From: Elusimicrobiota bacterium
Lineage (GTDB): Bacteria; CG03; SLGR01; PWQF01
DNA: 6,458 nt
Direction: 5' to 3'
NCBI GenBank assembly: GCA_003556865.1
Contig: PWQF01000261.1
Span: 1-6,458, forward strand
Shown here: positions 1,050 through 6,458 of the stretch, in pieces
Position numbering within the stretch: the first letter of the stretch is position 1
Layout: the number at the start of each line of letters is the position of its first letter
The notes under the pieces: model-generated
The model's input: the letters and a program-made list of their open reading frames with translations, nothing else
Databases searched by the model: none
Told to the model about the DNA's origin: nothing
Translations under genes and position numbers: made by a program

Positions 1050-2439
1050 GCTCGGCCGCCCCAAATTTACCCTTGCCCTGATATTATGGGCTCTGGTGGC
1101 GGCTTCGGTTACGCTTTTTTACGGCAGCAGTTTCAGGGCGGCAGTCGGCGCAGGGGTCTTTTTTATGCTGCTCCTTTACCTGGGTTTTGAATTTTATAAA
1201 AACTTTTTACCCGGTTTTATAAAAAATTTCAGTCAGCTTATATTAACCGGACTTATCAGTGCTTTTTCTGTTGCACTGGTAATGCTGATAAGGGGGCTTC
1301 CCGCTATTCCCGCTTCGTCGGCCTATCTTTTTCCGGCCGCGGCCGCGGGTATTCTTTTGTCGGTACTTATCTCTCCTCATGCCGCTACCGCCGCAATGCT
1401 TTGCATAAGCCTTGTTGCCGCGGTACTGGGCGGGTATTCACTTAACTATTTTTTTGTATATCTTGCCGGCGGTATGACGGCGGTCTATTATGCCGGAAAT
1501 GTAAGGACCAGAAAAGATTTAAATACCTGCGGACTTTATCTTCTTATCGCTAATCTTGTTTCCATAATAGCTGTTGAGCTTATGAACCCGTCCGCCGGAG
1601 GTTCTATAGAGGTTCTGGGTATTAATCTTGCCTGGGGGGCTCTTAATGCCCTGGCTTCTGTTATAATTGCCGGAGGCTTTCTTCCCATACTGGAAAGCCT
1701 TTTTTCCATTACCACCAACATAAAGCTTCTGGAACTTGGAGATTTTAACAACCCTCTTTTAAAGAGACTTATGCTGGAAGCCCCCGGCACTTATCATCAC
1801 AGCCTTATGGTTGCAAACCTGGCAGAGACTGCCTGCGAGCAGATAGGGGCCAACCCCCTGGTGGCCAGGGTGGGGGCCTATTATCACGACATAGGCAAAT
1901 TAAGCAATCCCCAGTACTTTGTGGAAAATGAAGGAGGGCTGGACAGGAAGCATAAAAACCTTAAACCAAATATAAGCGCACTCATTTTAAAGAGACACGT
2001 AAAGGACGGGCTGGCCCTTGCCCGGGAGCATAACCTGGACAGTATAATAAAGGAAATGATAGGCCAGCACCACGGGACCTCGCTTATAAAATTTTTTTAT
2101 GATAAAGAACTAAACGGGGCGGAGGAAAAAGACAAAATAGAGAAAAAGCAGTTTAAGTATCCCGGGCCCCGCCCCCAGTCCAGGGAAGCGGGGGTTATAA
2201 TGCTTGCCGACTCGGTGGAGGCCGCCTGCCGGACCCTGGAGGAACCTACATATTCCAGAATTTCAGGCCTGGTAACAAAGGTCATCAATATGAAGTTTAC
2301 CGAACACCAGCTTAATGAATGCGACCTCACCATGGCCGGGCTGGAAAAAATACAGAAAGTATTTACTCTTGCTTTATCCGGCATTTATCATTCCCGGATA
2401 GAATACCCGGAGGATAAAGAAGAGATAGCTGTTGAGTAA
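1012..2439 (+). CDS. pgpH: Membrane HD-domain phosphodiesterase, PgpH/YqfF type, lacking the extracellular domain
   Basis: 475 aa against roughly 700 or more in the family. Seven or eight hydrophobic segments (about 19-37, 43-63, 74-93, 103-121, 123-142, 143-161, 172-190, 203-226) lead straight into a cytoplasmic HD domain. The metal-binding set is complete: LEAPGTYHHSLMVANLAE (255-272, His262/263), YHDIGK (291-296), His329 in RHVKDG, GQHHGT (351-356) and Asp400 in ADSVEAA. The block YPGPRPQSREA and the ending GIYHSRIEYP are also family hallmarks. Characterised PgpH proteins hydrolyse cyclic di-AMP to pApA, so that activity is inferred. The large extracellular 7TMR-HDED domain that normally follows the first helix is absent. 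ATG 1012 directly follows an in-frame TAG and is the only conventional start before the first helix, although it lies inside phoH (38-base overlap) without a clear ribosome site. It ends 8 bases into ybeY. Confidence 0.9.
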   Translation: MPIINLKKVKTVKLGRPKFTLALILWALVAASVTLFYGSSFRAAVGAGVFFMLLLYLGFEFYKNFLPGFIKNFSQLILTGLISAFSVALVMLIRGLPAIPASSAYLFPAAAAGILLSVLISPHAATAAMLCISLVAAVLGGYSLNYFFVYLAGGMTAVYYAGNVRTRKDLNTCGLYLLIANLVSIIAVELMNPSAGGSIEVLGINLAWGALNALASVIIAGGFLPILESLFSITTNIKLLELGDFNNPLLKRLMLEAPGTYHHSLMVANLAETACEQIGANPLVARVGAYYHDIGKLSNPQYFVENEGGLDRKHKNLKPNISALILKRHVKDGLALAREHNLDSIIKEMIGQHHGTSLIKFFYDKELNGAEEKDKIEKKQFKYPGPRPQSREAGVIMLADSVEAACRTLEEPTYSRISGLVTKVINMKFTEHQLNECDLTMAGLEKIQKVFTLALSGIYHSRIEYPEDKEEIAVE

Positions 2440-2881
2440 AAAAACGGCGGTAAACTTAAAGGGCCCCCTTTTTATCAGTAAAGATATGCTGGAGGAAATC
2501 GCTTCGCATATAAAAAATAATTTCTGGAACCACCCGGAAAAAATCGGGGGAGATTGTGAGGTGGATGTAGATATTGTAAGCAACAGGAGTATACGCAGTA
2601 TAAACCGCAGCTACCTGGGCAGGGACAGGTCAACCGATGTTATTGCCTTTTCCTTTAGCGAGGGGGTAAAAACTCCTGCCTGCGGAAAAAATATGCTGGG
2701 GCAGATCATAATTTCGGGTGAAAAAGCAAAAGAGAACGCTGATGCTTACAGTCATAGCCACAAAAGAGAACTTACTCTTCTGTTTATACACGGTATGCTT
2801 CATTTATGCGGATGGGAGGAAGGAAGAAAAATAAAAGCGGAAGAGCAGAAAATTTTAAACCGGTTTTATCCTTTAAAATGA
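2432..2881 (+). CDS. ybeY: YbeY-type rRNA maturation endoribonuclease, third metal ligand altered
   Basis: 149 aa, normal family length. The conserved STDVIAFSF block (67-75), GQIIISGEKAKENA (90-103) and the helix ending in HGMLHLCGW (120-128) identify YbeY, a single-domain cytoplasmic metalloprotein needed for 16S rRNA 3'-end maturation and ribosome quality control. The family metal motif is HGxLHLxGxxH; His120 and His124 are present, but the third ligand position (130) is Glu, within WEEGRK. The start is TTG 2432, overlapping the preceding stop by 8 bases; a weak GAAGAG lies 7 bases upstream (2419-2424). The next in-frame ATG (2486) would remove the first conserved strand, so TTG is preferred. 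The stop TGA overlaps the next ATG (ATGA). Family assignment is secure; full catalytic competence is less so because of the Glu. Confidence 0.93.
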   Translation: MSKKTAVNLKGPLFISKDMLEEIASHIKNNFWNHPEKIGGDCEVDVDIVSNRSIRSINRSYLGRDRSTDVIAFSFSEGVKTPACGKNMLGQIIISGEKAKENADAYSHSHKRELTLLFIHGMLHLCGWEEGRKIKAEEQKILNRFYPLK

Positions 2882-3447
2882 AGAAAAGTAAAGAATATTC
2901 CGGGCTTAAACAGAGTTTTTTTAACGCTTTCCGGGGCATTATATGGGCCCTCAGGGCAGAACGCAACCTTAAGATACATTTTATTATTGCCCTGATGATT
3001 CTTATATCTTCTTTTTTTCTTAATTTAAGCAGGATGGAAATAATAGCCCTGGTTATTGCTATTACCGGTGTGCTGGCGGCTGAAATGATAAATACGGCTT
3101 CGGAAAATATGACTGATCTTATAACCGAAGAACATCATCCCATGGCCAGGATAGTGAAAGATATTATGGCCGGGTCGGTTCTTATGGCCTCCCTGGGCGC
3201 GGCAGTTGTGGGATATCTTGTTTTTGTGCGCCCGGAAGTGCTGGGTGTATTTAAGGAATCAGTAGTTATGAAAAAGGTATCTCTTTTCCCGCCCCATATT
3301 GTTTTTGTGGCCCTTATAATTGTTTTCGGGGTTTCAGCGGCAATAAAGGTCCGGAGGGAAAATAATCTCACCCTGGTGGGAGGGATGCCAAGCATCCATA
3401 CCGCGCTTGCCTTTTCCATAGCCCTTATTTCATATTCTCTCTCATAA
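2878..3447 (+). CDS. dgkA: Undecaprenol/diacylglycerol kinase (DgkA family) with a PAP2-like tail cut by an in-frame stop
   Basis: 189 aa to the TAA at 3445-3447. Residues 1-118 are a DgkA-type integral membrane kinase with three helices: Glu28 in the AERN segment, and AAEMINTASENMTDL (67-81) carrying Glu69, Glu76 and Asp80, followed by RIVKDIMAGSVL (91-102). The wording resembles the Gram-positive undecaprenol kinases more than E. coli DgkA, so phosphorylation of undecaprenol to the wall lipid carrier is the likely reaction. Residues 139-189 begin a second, PAP2-like domain with a helix and GGMPSIHTA (168-176), corresponding to the PSGH motif, and stop there. The same frame continues beyond the TAA with the missing PAP2 part. 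ATG 2878 is chosen because it forms an ATGA overlap with ybeY; the frame is open further upstream (ATG 2806), but that lies inside ybeY and would add a non-homologous leader. Confidence 0.85.
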   Translation: MKKSKEYSGLKQSFFNAFRGIIWALRAERNLKIHFIIALMILISSFFLNLSRMEIIALVIAITGVLAAEMINTASENMTDLITEEHHPMARIVKDIMAGSVLMASLGAAVVGYLVFVRPEVLGVFKESVVMKKVSLFPPHIVFVALIIVFGVSAAIKVRRENNLTLVGGMPSIHTALAFSIALISYSLS

Positions 3448-3600
3448 AGCCTTTATGTCTTGGGCCTCTCTCTCTTCCTGGCCCTCCTGGTAGCCCAGGC
3501 CAGGGTTGTAGCTAAAATACACACATTGTGGGAAGTCTTTGCCGGCGCGGTAATAGGTTCCGGTTTAACTCTCCTTCTTCTTCACCTGATAATGCGGTGA
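3448..3600 (+). pseudogene. Detached C-terminal PAP2-like segment of the kinase-phosphatase fusion
   Basis: After the TAA at 3445-3447 the same reading frame runs for 50 more codons to a TGA at 3598-3600. It reads as a PAP2-superfamily C-terminus: a hydrophobic helix, then AQARVVAKIHTLWEVFAGAVIG, cited here by its key residues (Arg of QAR, His of KIH, Glu of WEV), which corresponds to the SR-x5-H-x3-D motif, then a final hydrophobic helix. No base needs to be inserted or removed to join it to the kinase frame; a single sense codon in place of TAA (AAA, CAA or GAA) would give one 240-residue fusion protein. Its stop overlaps the next gene's GTG by 4 bases, the usual pattern in this operon. It could be a nonsense mutant, a sequencing error, or the tail of a split protein restarted at a non-ATG codon such as TTG 3460. 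Confidence 0.75.
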
Positions 3601-4592
3601 CTTACGCGGCCCTAATACTACTTACATACCTTTCCGGGTTTTTTTCCTCTATTGAAACAGCCCTTTATTCTATGGGGGAGGCCAGGATAAGGGAATGGTC
3701 CTGCGGCCGTATGCCCCAGCTGAAATACTGGATAAACGAGCCTGCGGGAGTAGTTACGGGAATACTTGTGGGAAATAACCTGATAAACATAGCTTTTTCG
3801 GCTATTTTTACCCTTATTGTTGCTTCCCTGGCCCAGCAACGCCAGTTAAGCGGGGCCTGGCCCGAAATTCTCTCAATAACCGGGTCTTCAATAATAATTC
3901 TTACCTTTGGAGAAATAATTCCTAAAACTTTTGCAAACACCTATCCGGACAGGGTAGTTAAAGCCTATTACCGTATTTTTCTGAAATTCTACCGCCCTCT
4001 CAGGTCTTTTTCCGGGTTTCTTAACCGTATATCTTTTGCCCTGGTGGGGAATCTGAAATCCCGTAAAGAAAAATATATATCCCGGCGTGAAATTCAGATG
4101 GAAATAGAATCTGCCGGAAAAGAGGGACACCTGGAGATGGATTTTTCCCAGATGCTGGGAGGGGCTATACTGCTTTCCCAGAAAAGAGTGGGGGAAGTTA
4201 TGACCCCCCGGGAAAAAATTACAGCCATAAACCTTGAGCGCGGATATAAGCAGATAATTAACATACTGCTTAAAAGTAAATATTCAAGGGTCCCGGCTTA
4301 TACCGGGCGGCTTGATAAAGTTAAGGGCTTTATTTATATAAAGGACGTAATAGGCCAGCTTAACAGGGAGGGAAAAGCAGATTTTAAAAAAATACTTAGA
4401 AAACCAAAGGTTACCAGACAGAAGAAAAGCTGCCAGAGGCTTTTCCAGGAAATGAGAAAAGAGAGAATGCATGCCTGTGTAGTTAAAAGCAAAAACCGGG
4501 TGGTGGGTATAGTTACAATTGAAGATTTAATAGAAGAAGTTGTAGGGGAAATCTATGATGAATATGACCGTGGCGTGGAACTTAGCCTTTAA
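3597..4592 (+). CDS. CNNM/CorC-type CBS membrane protein, copy 1 (no CorC_HlyC domain)
   Basis: 331 aa with the GTG start at 3597. A DUF21/CNNM transmembrane domain (about 1-135) has helices near 2-24, 51-78 and 90-108. It carries the SSIETALYS motif (17-25) and GEIIPK (105-110), the acidic pair and Pro-Lys that typify this ion-transport fold. A CBS pair follows (about 197-255 and 262-320) with VMTPRE, SRVPAYTG and TIEDLIEEVVGEIYDEYD. The family is linked to Mg2+/Co2+ export or resistance; a Mg2+ role is inferred. The protein ends about 15 residues after the second CBS, so the usual C-terminal CorC_HlyC domain is absent. CBS2 has VVKSKNRVVG where relatives have VVDEYGxxxG. The frame is open back to ATG 3528, but that adds a polar, non-homologous leader; GTG 3597 forms a GTGA overlap and starts right at the first helix. 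Confidence 0.9.
   Translation: MTYAALILLTYLSGFFSSIETALYSMGEARIREWSCGRMPQLKYWINEPAGVVTGILVGNNLINIAFSAIFTLIVASLAQQRQLSGAWPEILSITGSSIIILTFGEIIPKTFANTYPDRVVKAYYRIFLKFYRPLRSFSGFLNRISFALVGNLKSRKEKYISRREIQMEIESAGKEGHLEMDFSQMLGGAILLSQKRVGEVMTPREKITAINLERGYKQIINILLKSKYSRVPAYTGRLDKVKGFIYIKDVIGQLNREGKADFKKILRKPKVTRQKKSCQRLFQEMRKERMHACVVKSKNRVVGIVTIEDLIEEVVGEIYDEYDRGVELSL
4544..4548 (+). promoter_or_regulatory. Probable ribosome-binding site for the second CorC gene
   Basis: AGGGG lies 6 bases before the ATG at 4555 and 9 before the ATG at 4558. It is one of the few recognisable Shine-Dalgarno-like sequences in this operon, and it supports starting the second CorC gene at 4555/4558 rather than at the later ATG 4564. 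It sits inside the codons for the VVGEIYDEYD segment of the first CorC gene, so a conserved protein motif and an initiation signal share the same bases. Confidence 0.5.
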
Positions 4593-5829
4593 AGCTTTAA
4601 TATTTTTTATTCTGCTCCTGTTTACCGTCTTTTTTGTGGCGGCTGAAACATCCCTTACTTATCTCAGGAAATCTCAGACCCGGCGCCTTATAAAGGAAAA
4701 AGGGATTCTAAAGCTCCAGGCCTGGCTGGATAGACCCAACCGGCTTCTTACCACTACCCTGGCCGGGACGGCTATGAGCGTAATAGGGGTTTCGGTTATG
4801 GGGACTTCCATGGCACTGGATATAAGCGCCGTTTTTGATATTCCCCCGGCGGCAGCAGCTTCTTTCAGCACTTTTATAATACTTATAATAGTCCTGGTAT
4901 TTTCGGAAATAGTTCCCAAGGCCTATGCGCGCCGTAATGCCAGGCGGGTTTCGGCCCGTATAATAGGCCCCCTCAGGATAATTGATTTTTTGCTTACCCC
5001 GATCATAAGTTTTTACACTTTTTTGTCGGATATGATAATAAAAGCAGTTCCCTCCCACTCTATGAAAAAGCATTCCCTTTTTGACCGTGAAGAGTTAAAG
5101 GGGCTTATAGATGTGGGAGTCAGGGAGGGGGAAATAGAGTCCGGCGAAAAAAAGATGCTGACCAGGATAATGGAGTTTTCCGGGACAGTAGTAAGGGAGA
5201 TAATGGTTCCCAGGGTTGCTCTGAGGGCGCTGGATATAAGCCTGGAAAAAAGGGAGTTGATAAAGAGGGCAATCGAAACAGGCCATTCCCGTATTCCGGT
5301 TTACAGCAGCTCTCCGGATAAGATAGAAGGGGTTCTTTATGTAAAAGATCTTTTAGGCTGCCTTGTTGAAAAAAAGGAATTCAGCATAAAACAGATATTA
5401 AGAAAAACTTACTTTGTTCCTGAAAGCAAACCTGCCGTCCAGCTTTTAAATGAGTTCAGGCAGGGAAGAGAACATATAGCTGTAGTGGTGGACGAATACG
5501 GAGTTACCGCAGGGATAATAACAATAGAGGATATAGTTGAAGAAATAACCGGTGAGATTTATGACGAATATGATAAAGGGAGCGATACCATAAAAAGCGC
5601 CGGGCGTAAAAGCTGGGAGATAAAGGCCATTGAGGACCTGGACAAAATTAATGACCGGCTTAAGATTAATCTTCCGGAAGATAAATATGATTCACTGGGA
5701 GGGTTTATCCTGGGCCGGCTGGGCCGGGTTCCGGCTCCCGGAGAAAGCATTAAATACGGCAGCTACGGAATTACTGTTCTTGATTCCACACCCAGCAGGA
5801 TTATCAGTGTCCGGCTGCAGCTGAATTAA
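4555..5829 (+). CDS. CNNM/CorC-type CBS membrane protein, copy 2 (full domain set)
   Basis: 424 aa, normal length for the hemolysin/CorC family. The DUF21 transmembrane domain (about 8-165) has helices near 10-33, 66-88, 98-120 and 140-160, with VAAETSLTYL (28-37) and the SEIVPK motif (117-122). The CBS pair spans about 213-270 and 275-335, with IMVPR, HSRIPVY, AVVVDEYGVTAG (309-320) and TIEDIVEEITGEIYDEYD. The C-terminal CorC_HlyC domain (about 352-422) has the pattern DLDKINDRLKINLP followed by DSLGGFILGRLGRVP and PGESI. Family members are inner-membrane proteins tied to Mg2+/Co2+ homeostasis; CBS domains in relatives sense adenine nucleotides. The start is ATG 4555 or the adjacent 4558, preceded by AGGGG, and overlaps copy 1 by 38 bases. 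The two copies are clearly paralogues, but too diverged to be a recent duplication. Confidence 0.93.
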   Translation: MMNMTVAWNLAFKALIFFILLLFTVFFVAAETSLTYLRKSQTRRLIKEKGILKLQAWLDRPNRLLTTTLAGTAMSVIGVSVMGTSMALDISAVFDIPPAAAASFSTFIILIIVLVFSEIVPKAYARRNARRVSARIIGPLRIIDFLLTPIISFYTFLSDMIIKAVPSHSMKKHSLFDREELKGLIDVGVREGEIESGEKKMLTRIMEFSGTVVREIMVPRVALRALDISLEKRELIKRAIETGHSRIPVYSSSPDKIEGVLYVKDLLGCLVEKKEFSIKQILRKTYFVPESKPAVQLLNEFRQGREHIAVVVDEYGVTAGIITIEDIVEEITGEIYDEYDKGSDTIKSAGRKSWEIKAIEDLDKINDRLKINLPEDKYDSLGGFILGRLGRVPAPGESIKYGSYGITVLDSTPSRIISVRLQLN

Positions 5830-5852: not shown

Positions 5853-6458
5853 TTATTCCCCGGCTCCGTGGCGGCGGAGAAGTTCGGCTATTTCCGTATA
5901 TCCGAAATGCTGGGCAGCCACGAGGGCAGTACCCCCGAACTCGTTTCTTGCTTCCGTATCTGCTCCTGCTTTCAGAAGCATCTCGGCTATTTCCCTGTAG
6001 CCCTCAAGGGATGCGGCCATAAGGGGGGTAATCCCGTCCTGGTTTGCCATATTCAGGTCGGCGCCGGCGCTTATAAGCTTTTCAGCTGAATCTATGTGAT
6101 TGTTCATTATGGCCAGAAGCAGGGGTGTCATCCCTCCCTGGTTTTGGGCATCCAGGTCGGCACCGGCTTCTATAAGCAGTTGTACTATTTCACTAATCCC
6201 GTCCATAGCCGCCAGCATAAGAGGGGTCAAACCGTAATCATAAGTGATATTTACTTTTGCGCCGGCTTCTGCCAGCAACTCCAGGGCTTCAGGATCATTG
6301 TGCAGGTAGGCTTCCATAATCATATCTTCTCCGTAAGCGGAATAGTCCAGTATAATTACTGCCTGGCGGGATTGGGGGTTTGCTTCCAGTGCTTTTTGGG
6401 CCTCAATGGATGCCTGTTCATATCTTTCCTCTCTTACCGCTTCTTTTGCTTCTTTAAG
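5853..6458 (-). CDS. Ankyrin-repeat protein with an upstream TPR-like helical region (5' partial)
   Basis: 201 residues are visible and the frame is open to the right edge, so the true start lies outside; the Met codon at 6323 is internal, because the preceding 45 residues read as protein. Visible residues 1-30 (for example REERYEQASIEAQKALEANP) look like a TPR-type helix pair. From about 44 to 198 there are ankyrin repeats: a divergent first one, then 33-residue units beginning at 77 (LTPLMLAA), 110 (MTPLLLAI), 143 (ITPLMAAS) and 176 (GTALVAAQ), with the GADL/GADT turns expected before each hairpin. The protein ends shortly after the last repeat. These modules bind other proteins; no enzymatic domain is visible and the partner is unknown. 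Whether it has a signal peptide or other N-terminal domain cannot be seen. It converges on the operon and is transcribed separately. Confidence 0.85.
   Translation of the reverse strand, partial: LKEAKEAVREERYEQASIEAQKALEANPQSRQAVIILDYSAYGEDMIMEAYLHNDPEALELLAEAGAKVNITYDYGLTPLMLAAMDGISEIVQLLIEAGADLDAQNQGGMTPLLLAIMNNHIDSAEKLISAGADLNMANQDGITPLMAASLEGYREIAEMLLKAGADTEARNEFGGTALVAAQHFGYTEIAELLRRHGAGE
5904..6299 (-). repeat. Tandem 99-bp ankyrin-coding repeats
   Basis: The ankyrin units recur at 99-base spacing. The clearest pair at the DNA level is the segment beginning CAGGTCGGCGCCGGC at 6054 and its near copy CAGGTCGGCACCGGC at 6153 (plus-strand reading), exactly 99 bases apart, each followed by TTATAAGC or CTATAAGC. 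Units centred further left and right keep the spacing but have diverged. This is protein-coding repetition, not a separate mobile or regulatory repeat. Confidence 0.6.

Follow-up and report, generated by a model that had tools for sequence, protein, structure and literature searches.

The window analyzed here appears to be the whole of contig PWQF01000261.1 (6,458 nucleotides; GenBank assembly GCA_003556865.1) from an Elusimicrobiota bacterium, and it carries a gene for a DgkA/UdpK-type lipid kinase fused to a PAP2-type phosphatase, in which a TAA at positions 3445 to 3447 interrupts an otherwise intact reading frame. In the translation of positions 2878 to 3600, the frame opened by the ATG at 2878 encodes 189 residues, meets the stop at codon 190, continues for 50 residues, and closes with a TGA. 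The TAA is very probably a private in-frame stop in an ordinary kinase-PAP2 fusion, produced by a recent nonsense change or a base error, and it calls for no new mechanism; a true mutation and an error of the assembly are about equally likely. The features of the gene are listed below.

2878..3444, forward strand: open part of the fusion gene, encoding the DgkA-type lipid kinase and the first half of the PAP2 domain
2923-3225, forward strand: profile match to Pfam DAGK_prokar within the fusion gene
3388-3399, forward strand: PSIH motif of the first half of the PAP2 domain
3445..3447, forward strand: in-frame TAA; the aligned place is a sense codon in 80 of 80 loci compared
3448..3597, forward strand: 50 codons for the rest of the PAP2 domain, last helix included
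3502-3504 (Arg), 3520-3522 (His), and 3532-3534 (Glu), forward strand: PAP2 motif residues past the TAA, invariant columns of alignment A1
3598..3600, forward strand: TGA closing the fusion frame, which overlaps the start codon of the next gene (GTG, 3597)

Profile matches identify both parts of the fusion. Residues 16 to 116 match the Pfam family DAGK_prokar (E 9.9e-31; 106.1 bits against a cut-off of 22.3), and the kinase domain is complete in the 189-residue part. Those 189 residues taken alone give no Pfam PAP2 match. Without the upstream part, the 50 codons past the TAA still match the end of Pfam PAP2 (E 1.9e-5; 24.8 bits, below the curated cut-off of 27.2); masking the stop as X extends the PAP2 match across it, to residues 168 to 237, at 34.7 bits against the same cut-off. 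In addition, the 50 downstream codons match all eight nearby loci searched by tblastn (E 3e-7 to 5e-13, for this small set only), and on the sequence comparisons the downstream PAP2 match is not a chance one. A search of NCBIfam gave no family for the 189 residues and only subthreshold LpxE matches for the PAP2 part.

The family features of both domains were examined in an alignment (A1) of 30 of the 35 database relatives listed, with P0031, P0033, P0034, and P0035 excluded as short and P0001 being the protein of the window itself. The aligned relatives are predicted proteins, which are unable to show a stop, and they serve as evidence for the fusion only; all 30 continue through the stop position. 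The columns that are invariant with the window included are E69, N72, E76, and K94 in the kinase part, which we take to correspond to DgkA active-site residues, and S172, H174, R209, H215, and E219 in the phosphatase part, of which the last three lie past the TAA. The PAP2 motif residues (PSxH and Arg-x5-His-x3-acidic) are thus all encoded in the window frame. The canonical PAP2 motif closes with Asp; column E219 (window positions 3532 to 3534), the acidic end of the last motif, is Glu in all rows of A1. A sequence-only reading of this DNA had placed the TAA between the PSxH and Arg...His motifs of a kinase-PAP2 fusion, with the missing motif and the final helix encoded in frame beyond it, and the translation, the Pfam matches, and the invariant residues bear out both its coordinates and its content. 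A single uninterrupted frame through both domains is lacking owing to the TAA, and the window copy is called an interrupted homolog of the DgkA/UdpK kinase-PAP2 fusion family rather than an intact member.

The stop was found in no relative of the fusion that reaches it. The closest among the relatives listed are the Elusimicrobia metagenome-assembled genome contigs L001 (60% identity over the fusion) and L002 (59%), both of which have the same operon as the window and an uninterrupted fusion, and L004, titled Candidatus Sumerlaeota, is fairly close at 47% identity. The fusion, a bacterial membrane enzyme, is common, with at least 539 stretches confirmed to encode a relative, and the best 80 of these loci were examined at the aligned TAA position. 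In 80 of 80 loci this position is a sense codon and the match continues beyond it into the second PAP2 half; 79 have no stop anywhere in the matched stretch, and in the remaining one (L067) the stop symbol sits upstream of the gene start, outside the gene. A search of 117 genomes related to that of L001, in which stops were read through and counted, gave a match in 41 genomes and a near-full-length match (ending at residue 235 or later) in 18, none of which has an internal stop; L001 to L005 come from five of these 18 genomes, so that this set and the 80 loci overlap. Two long weak matches (G045 and G047; 27% identity, ending at residues 194 and 181) also have no stop. Three shorter matches that cover essentially the kinase part (G077, G076, and G068) do carry stops. 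In G076, a kinase-like match with two TAA codons is separated by about 1 kb from a PAP2-like match on the other strand of contig C1 (373390 to 373791 and 374725 to 374958), and the pair is perhaps a degraded or rearranged relative.

In the five best-ranked loci, the residue at the stop position is Ser (L001), Gln together with an additional residue (L002), Gly (both L003 and L005), or Ala (L004); L006 has Lys, and clostridial loci often have Glu. Because the position is variable among relatives, the residue that preceded the TAA is not firmly inferable from these alignments. The sequence-only reading had proposed AAA, CAA, or GAA as the precursor codon; Lys, Gln, and Glu do occur in relatives, but the list is too narrow, as Ser, Gly, and Ala occur as well. 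It had also recommended the alignment with relatives, in which the position proved to be a sense codon throughout and the compared relatives do not end there. That TAA terminates five other genes of the window (PhoH, 7TM-HD, both CNNM genes, and the ankyrin gene) argues against its reassignment as a sense codon.

The half of the gene downstream of the TAA has no sign of decay in these comparisons and appears about as conserved as the upstream half. The ratio of nonsynonymous to synonymous differences per site (pN/pS) before and after the TAA was 0.33 and 0.35 against L001, 0.31 and 0.32 against L002, 0.44 and 0.44 against L003, 0.56 and 0.37 against L004, 0.53 and 0.53 against L005, and 0.55 and 0.53 against L006, all being rough values with synonymous sites near saturation (pS 0.64 to 0.86 over L001 to L006; against L001, 0.76 before the TAA and 0.64 after). 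The identity of the window after minus before the TAA averaged +0.015 over 30 relatives, compared with −0.006 (standard deviation, 0.073) among 435 pairs of the other relatives, and columns with at least 80% conservation were kept at 11 of 13 positions after the TAA and at 33 of 40 before it. In simulations of neutral drift, no new stop arose and the eight conserved residues stayed unchanged in 35% of 4,000 runs at 0.05 per site and in 3% of runs at 0.15 per site. With the rest of the frame intact, the stop needs no explanation beyond a recent change or an error, as had been proposed from the sequence.

None of the results runs counter to this explanation, although some points loosen it. The data fit a mutation and an error alike, and only one contig was found with the window protein: the 189-residue P0001 occurs in a single contig among the protein database matches, and a search with the protein of the next gene for a second copy from the same species gave nothing above 71% identity besides the window. 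The choice of the best-scoring 80 of at least 539 loci may favor uninterrupted copies. In addition, "recent" is only loosely bounded because synonymous sites are near saturation against L001, and the drift simulations show how loose this bound is.

The place of the stop within the protein was examined in a structure model of the intact L001 protein (mean predicted local distance difference test score [pLDDT], 85.9; predicted template modeling score, 0.78; four other models, 73.5 to 81.9). By codon count the stop position corresponds to L001 residue 195, in a two-residue turn between PAP2 helices modeled at residues 178 to 194 and 197 to 216. In this model, truncation would drop the last two helices together with the invariant R209, H215, and E219. 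The PAP2 motif residues are needed for phosphatase activity, and because the truncated product would lack the motif Arg, His, and Glu, it should have no phosphatase activity, a prediction made from the family motifs. A Foldseek search gave no match at E 0.001 or better and added little beyond the sequence matches.

The history that best accommodates these results begins with an unremarkable fusion of a DgkA/UdpK-type kinase to a PAP2-type phosphatase, encoded in an operon that Elusimicrobia relatives also keep. TAA would then have replaced a single codon within the variable turn that joins two PAP2 helices, either recently in this lineage or through a base error. If the change is real, translation would end after 189 residues; the product would retain the kinase domain plus the first PAP2 helices and, having lost the last two helices and with them the motif Arg, His, and Glu, should be without phosphatase activity. 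Translation of the overlapping CNNM gene would probably be lowered as well. Nothing indicates an evolved function for the stop.

It is improbable that the TAA is both real and useful, either setting the ratio of kinase-only to kinase-phosphatase product or giving a two-piece PAP2 phosphatase; if it were, the lineage would separate the phosphorylation of a lipid, perhaps undecaprenol, from the removal of lipid phosphate. In the two-piece version, which is most unlikely, the kinase with half a PAP2 domain and a separate 46-residue piece made by restart would assemble into a working phosphatase. The modeled location of the stop in a short turn between two helices is a structurally tolerable one, and an in-frame TTG (3460) lies 12 bases past the TAA. 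The location nevertheless gives this proposal no support, a variable turn being also the least costly site for a chance change, and the split is not seen in the relatives examined, all 80 loci and all 18 near-full-length genome matches being uninterrupted. No Shine-Dalgarno-like word of at least four bases precedes the TTG, a weak argument given that five of the seven other operon starts tested also are without one. The functional split with restart that had been offered as one option from the sequence thus finds no support in the relatives examined, which do not share it.

Readthrough of the TAA at a useful rate, yielding mostly kinase and some full fusion, is equally improbable. Efficient TAA readthrough in bacteria is unusual, TAA is an ordinary stop in the five other window genes named above, and the stop is common to none of the loci compared; the readthrough that had been called less likely from the sequence has gained no positive support. 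The intact downstream half would suit readthrough, and a survey (PMC7918605) proposes it for in-frame stops in bacterial genes with a ratio of nonsynonymous to synonymous substitution rates (dN/dS) below 1. The window stop resembles those cases in that the region downstream still looks conserved; it differs in that the surveyed stops occur in two or more genomes, whereas the window stop is found in a single contig and would fail that filter on present data.

That kinases of this clade normally end near the TAA, with an incidental match downstream, is the least credible of the alternatives: kinase-only proteins of 118 to 124 residues (P0031 and P0033) are among the matches, and in the 117 genomes many of the shorter matches are confined to the kinase part, but these kinase-only matches end near query residue 120, ahead of the PAP2 domain and not at 189. 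The closest relatives of the window have the complete fusion within the same operon, and the 50 codons past the TAA match PAP2 by themselves.

Among known systems, the window gene is closest to the DgkA/UdpK-PAP2 fusions (PF01219 plus PF01569), the known kind of protein to which it had been assigned from sequence, with L001, L002, and P0008 (Clostridiaceae bacterium 35-E11) among the intact examples. These have the same domain order, about 240 residues, and the same invariant columns in both parts; L001 and L002 have both Pfam domains above cut-off, and L001 to L005 also share the operon. Compared with these fusions, only the window has an in-frame stop between H174 and R209. Aquifex LpxE (6ebu) and Bacillus subtilis YodM (5jki) give profile matches over the PAP2 core (E 4.5e-8 and 1.4e-3, respectively) and are the two top-ranked Foldseek matches, at E values of only 0.11 and 0.16; unlike the window gene, they are complete stand-alone PAP2 phosphatases with no kinase fused. 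A literature search with limited terms for undecaprenol kinase/DgkA-PAP2 fusions or an Elusimicrobi undecaprenol kinase found no title or abstract opening on this fusion among the papers listed, and the available parts of PMC5852022 and PMC5723303 mention no kinase-PAP2 fusion. The database carries the fusion product as a 189-residue kinase (P0001), which is a caution for annotation; if the TAA is an error, a single base distorts this entry and perhaps also that of the next gene (P0036). The intact fusion, which combines lipid kinase and lipid phosphatase in a single polypeptide, may merit study.

The fusion gene lies in an operon with the order PhoH, 7TM-HD, YbeY, kinase-PAP2, CNNM, and CNNM, which is shared by the window and its Elusimicrobia relatives and was found in L001 to L005. 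The genes adjoining the fusion are as follows.

2432..2881, forward strand: YbeY, the preceding gene (longest frame; it may instead start at a later ATG, 2486)
3597..4592, forward strand: CNNM/CBS (CorC-like) membrane protein, the next gene, one open frame

Identities to L001 by gene are 73% for PhoH, 72% for 7TM-HD, 51% for YbeY, 57% for the kinase, and 70% and 68% for the two CNNM proteins. This shared gene order, together with the names of several matches to the next-gene protein (P0039 and P0047), points to Elusimicrobiota or close kin. Each of the remaining operon genes in the window forms a single open frame that is alignable with L001 over most of its length (PhoH, residues 1 to 296 of 298; HD, 16 to 475 of 475; YbeY, 2 to 127 of 131; first CNNM, 3 to 324 of 331; second CNNM, 1 to 423 of 424). 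No relative was found in viral contigs and no DNA match in plasmids; plasmid PhoH protein matches (622 records) are all below 60% identity and place nothing.

The genes around the fusion overlap. The TGA of YbeY (2879 to 2881) overlaps the fusion ATG (2878), and the TGA closing the fusion frame overlaps the next gene, in agreement with the sequence-only reading. The likely start of that gene, the GTG at 3597, shares the frame of the CNNM/CBS gene that ends at 4592 and gives 331 residues, as in its nearest relatives P0037 and P0038. The database CNNM protein (P0036) starts later and has 306 residues. In L001 and L002, the TAA that ends the fusion likewise overlaps an ATG. Among the starts tested, a four-base Shine-Dalgarno-like word precedes only those of HD (1012) and CNNM (3597), and because most tested starts are without one, coupled translation in the operon is plausible; the early stop would then probably reduce translation of the overlapping CNNM gene. 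Rfam gave nothing at gathering score in the window, no terminator-like site was found in 2700 to 3800, and the two promoter-like sites in that interval compare with 1.9 expected.

The two adjacent CNNM/CBS genes (3597 to 4592 and 4555 to 5829) have side-by-side counterparts in L001 to L005, with a CorC_HlyC domain match in the second only. An ankyrin-repeat gene on the reverse strand (5853 to 6458) is convergent with the operon and cut by the contig end, and it has no tblastn match in the eight nearby loci. In YbeY, the canonical motif is H-x3-H-x5-H; the window motif (2780 to 2830) reads HGMLHLCGWEEG, with Glu in place of the third His. Glu is also present at this position in L001, L002, and L004, and Asp in L006, with L003 and L005 unmatched by the pattern. 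Over 29 pattern matches in the window and L001 to L080, perhaps not all of them YbeY, the residue is Asp in 13, His in 12, and Glu in 4, and by this comparison the Glu variant is common to relatives and not peculiar to the window contig.
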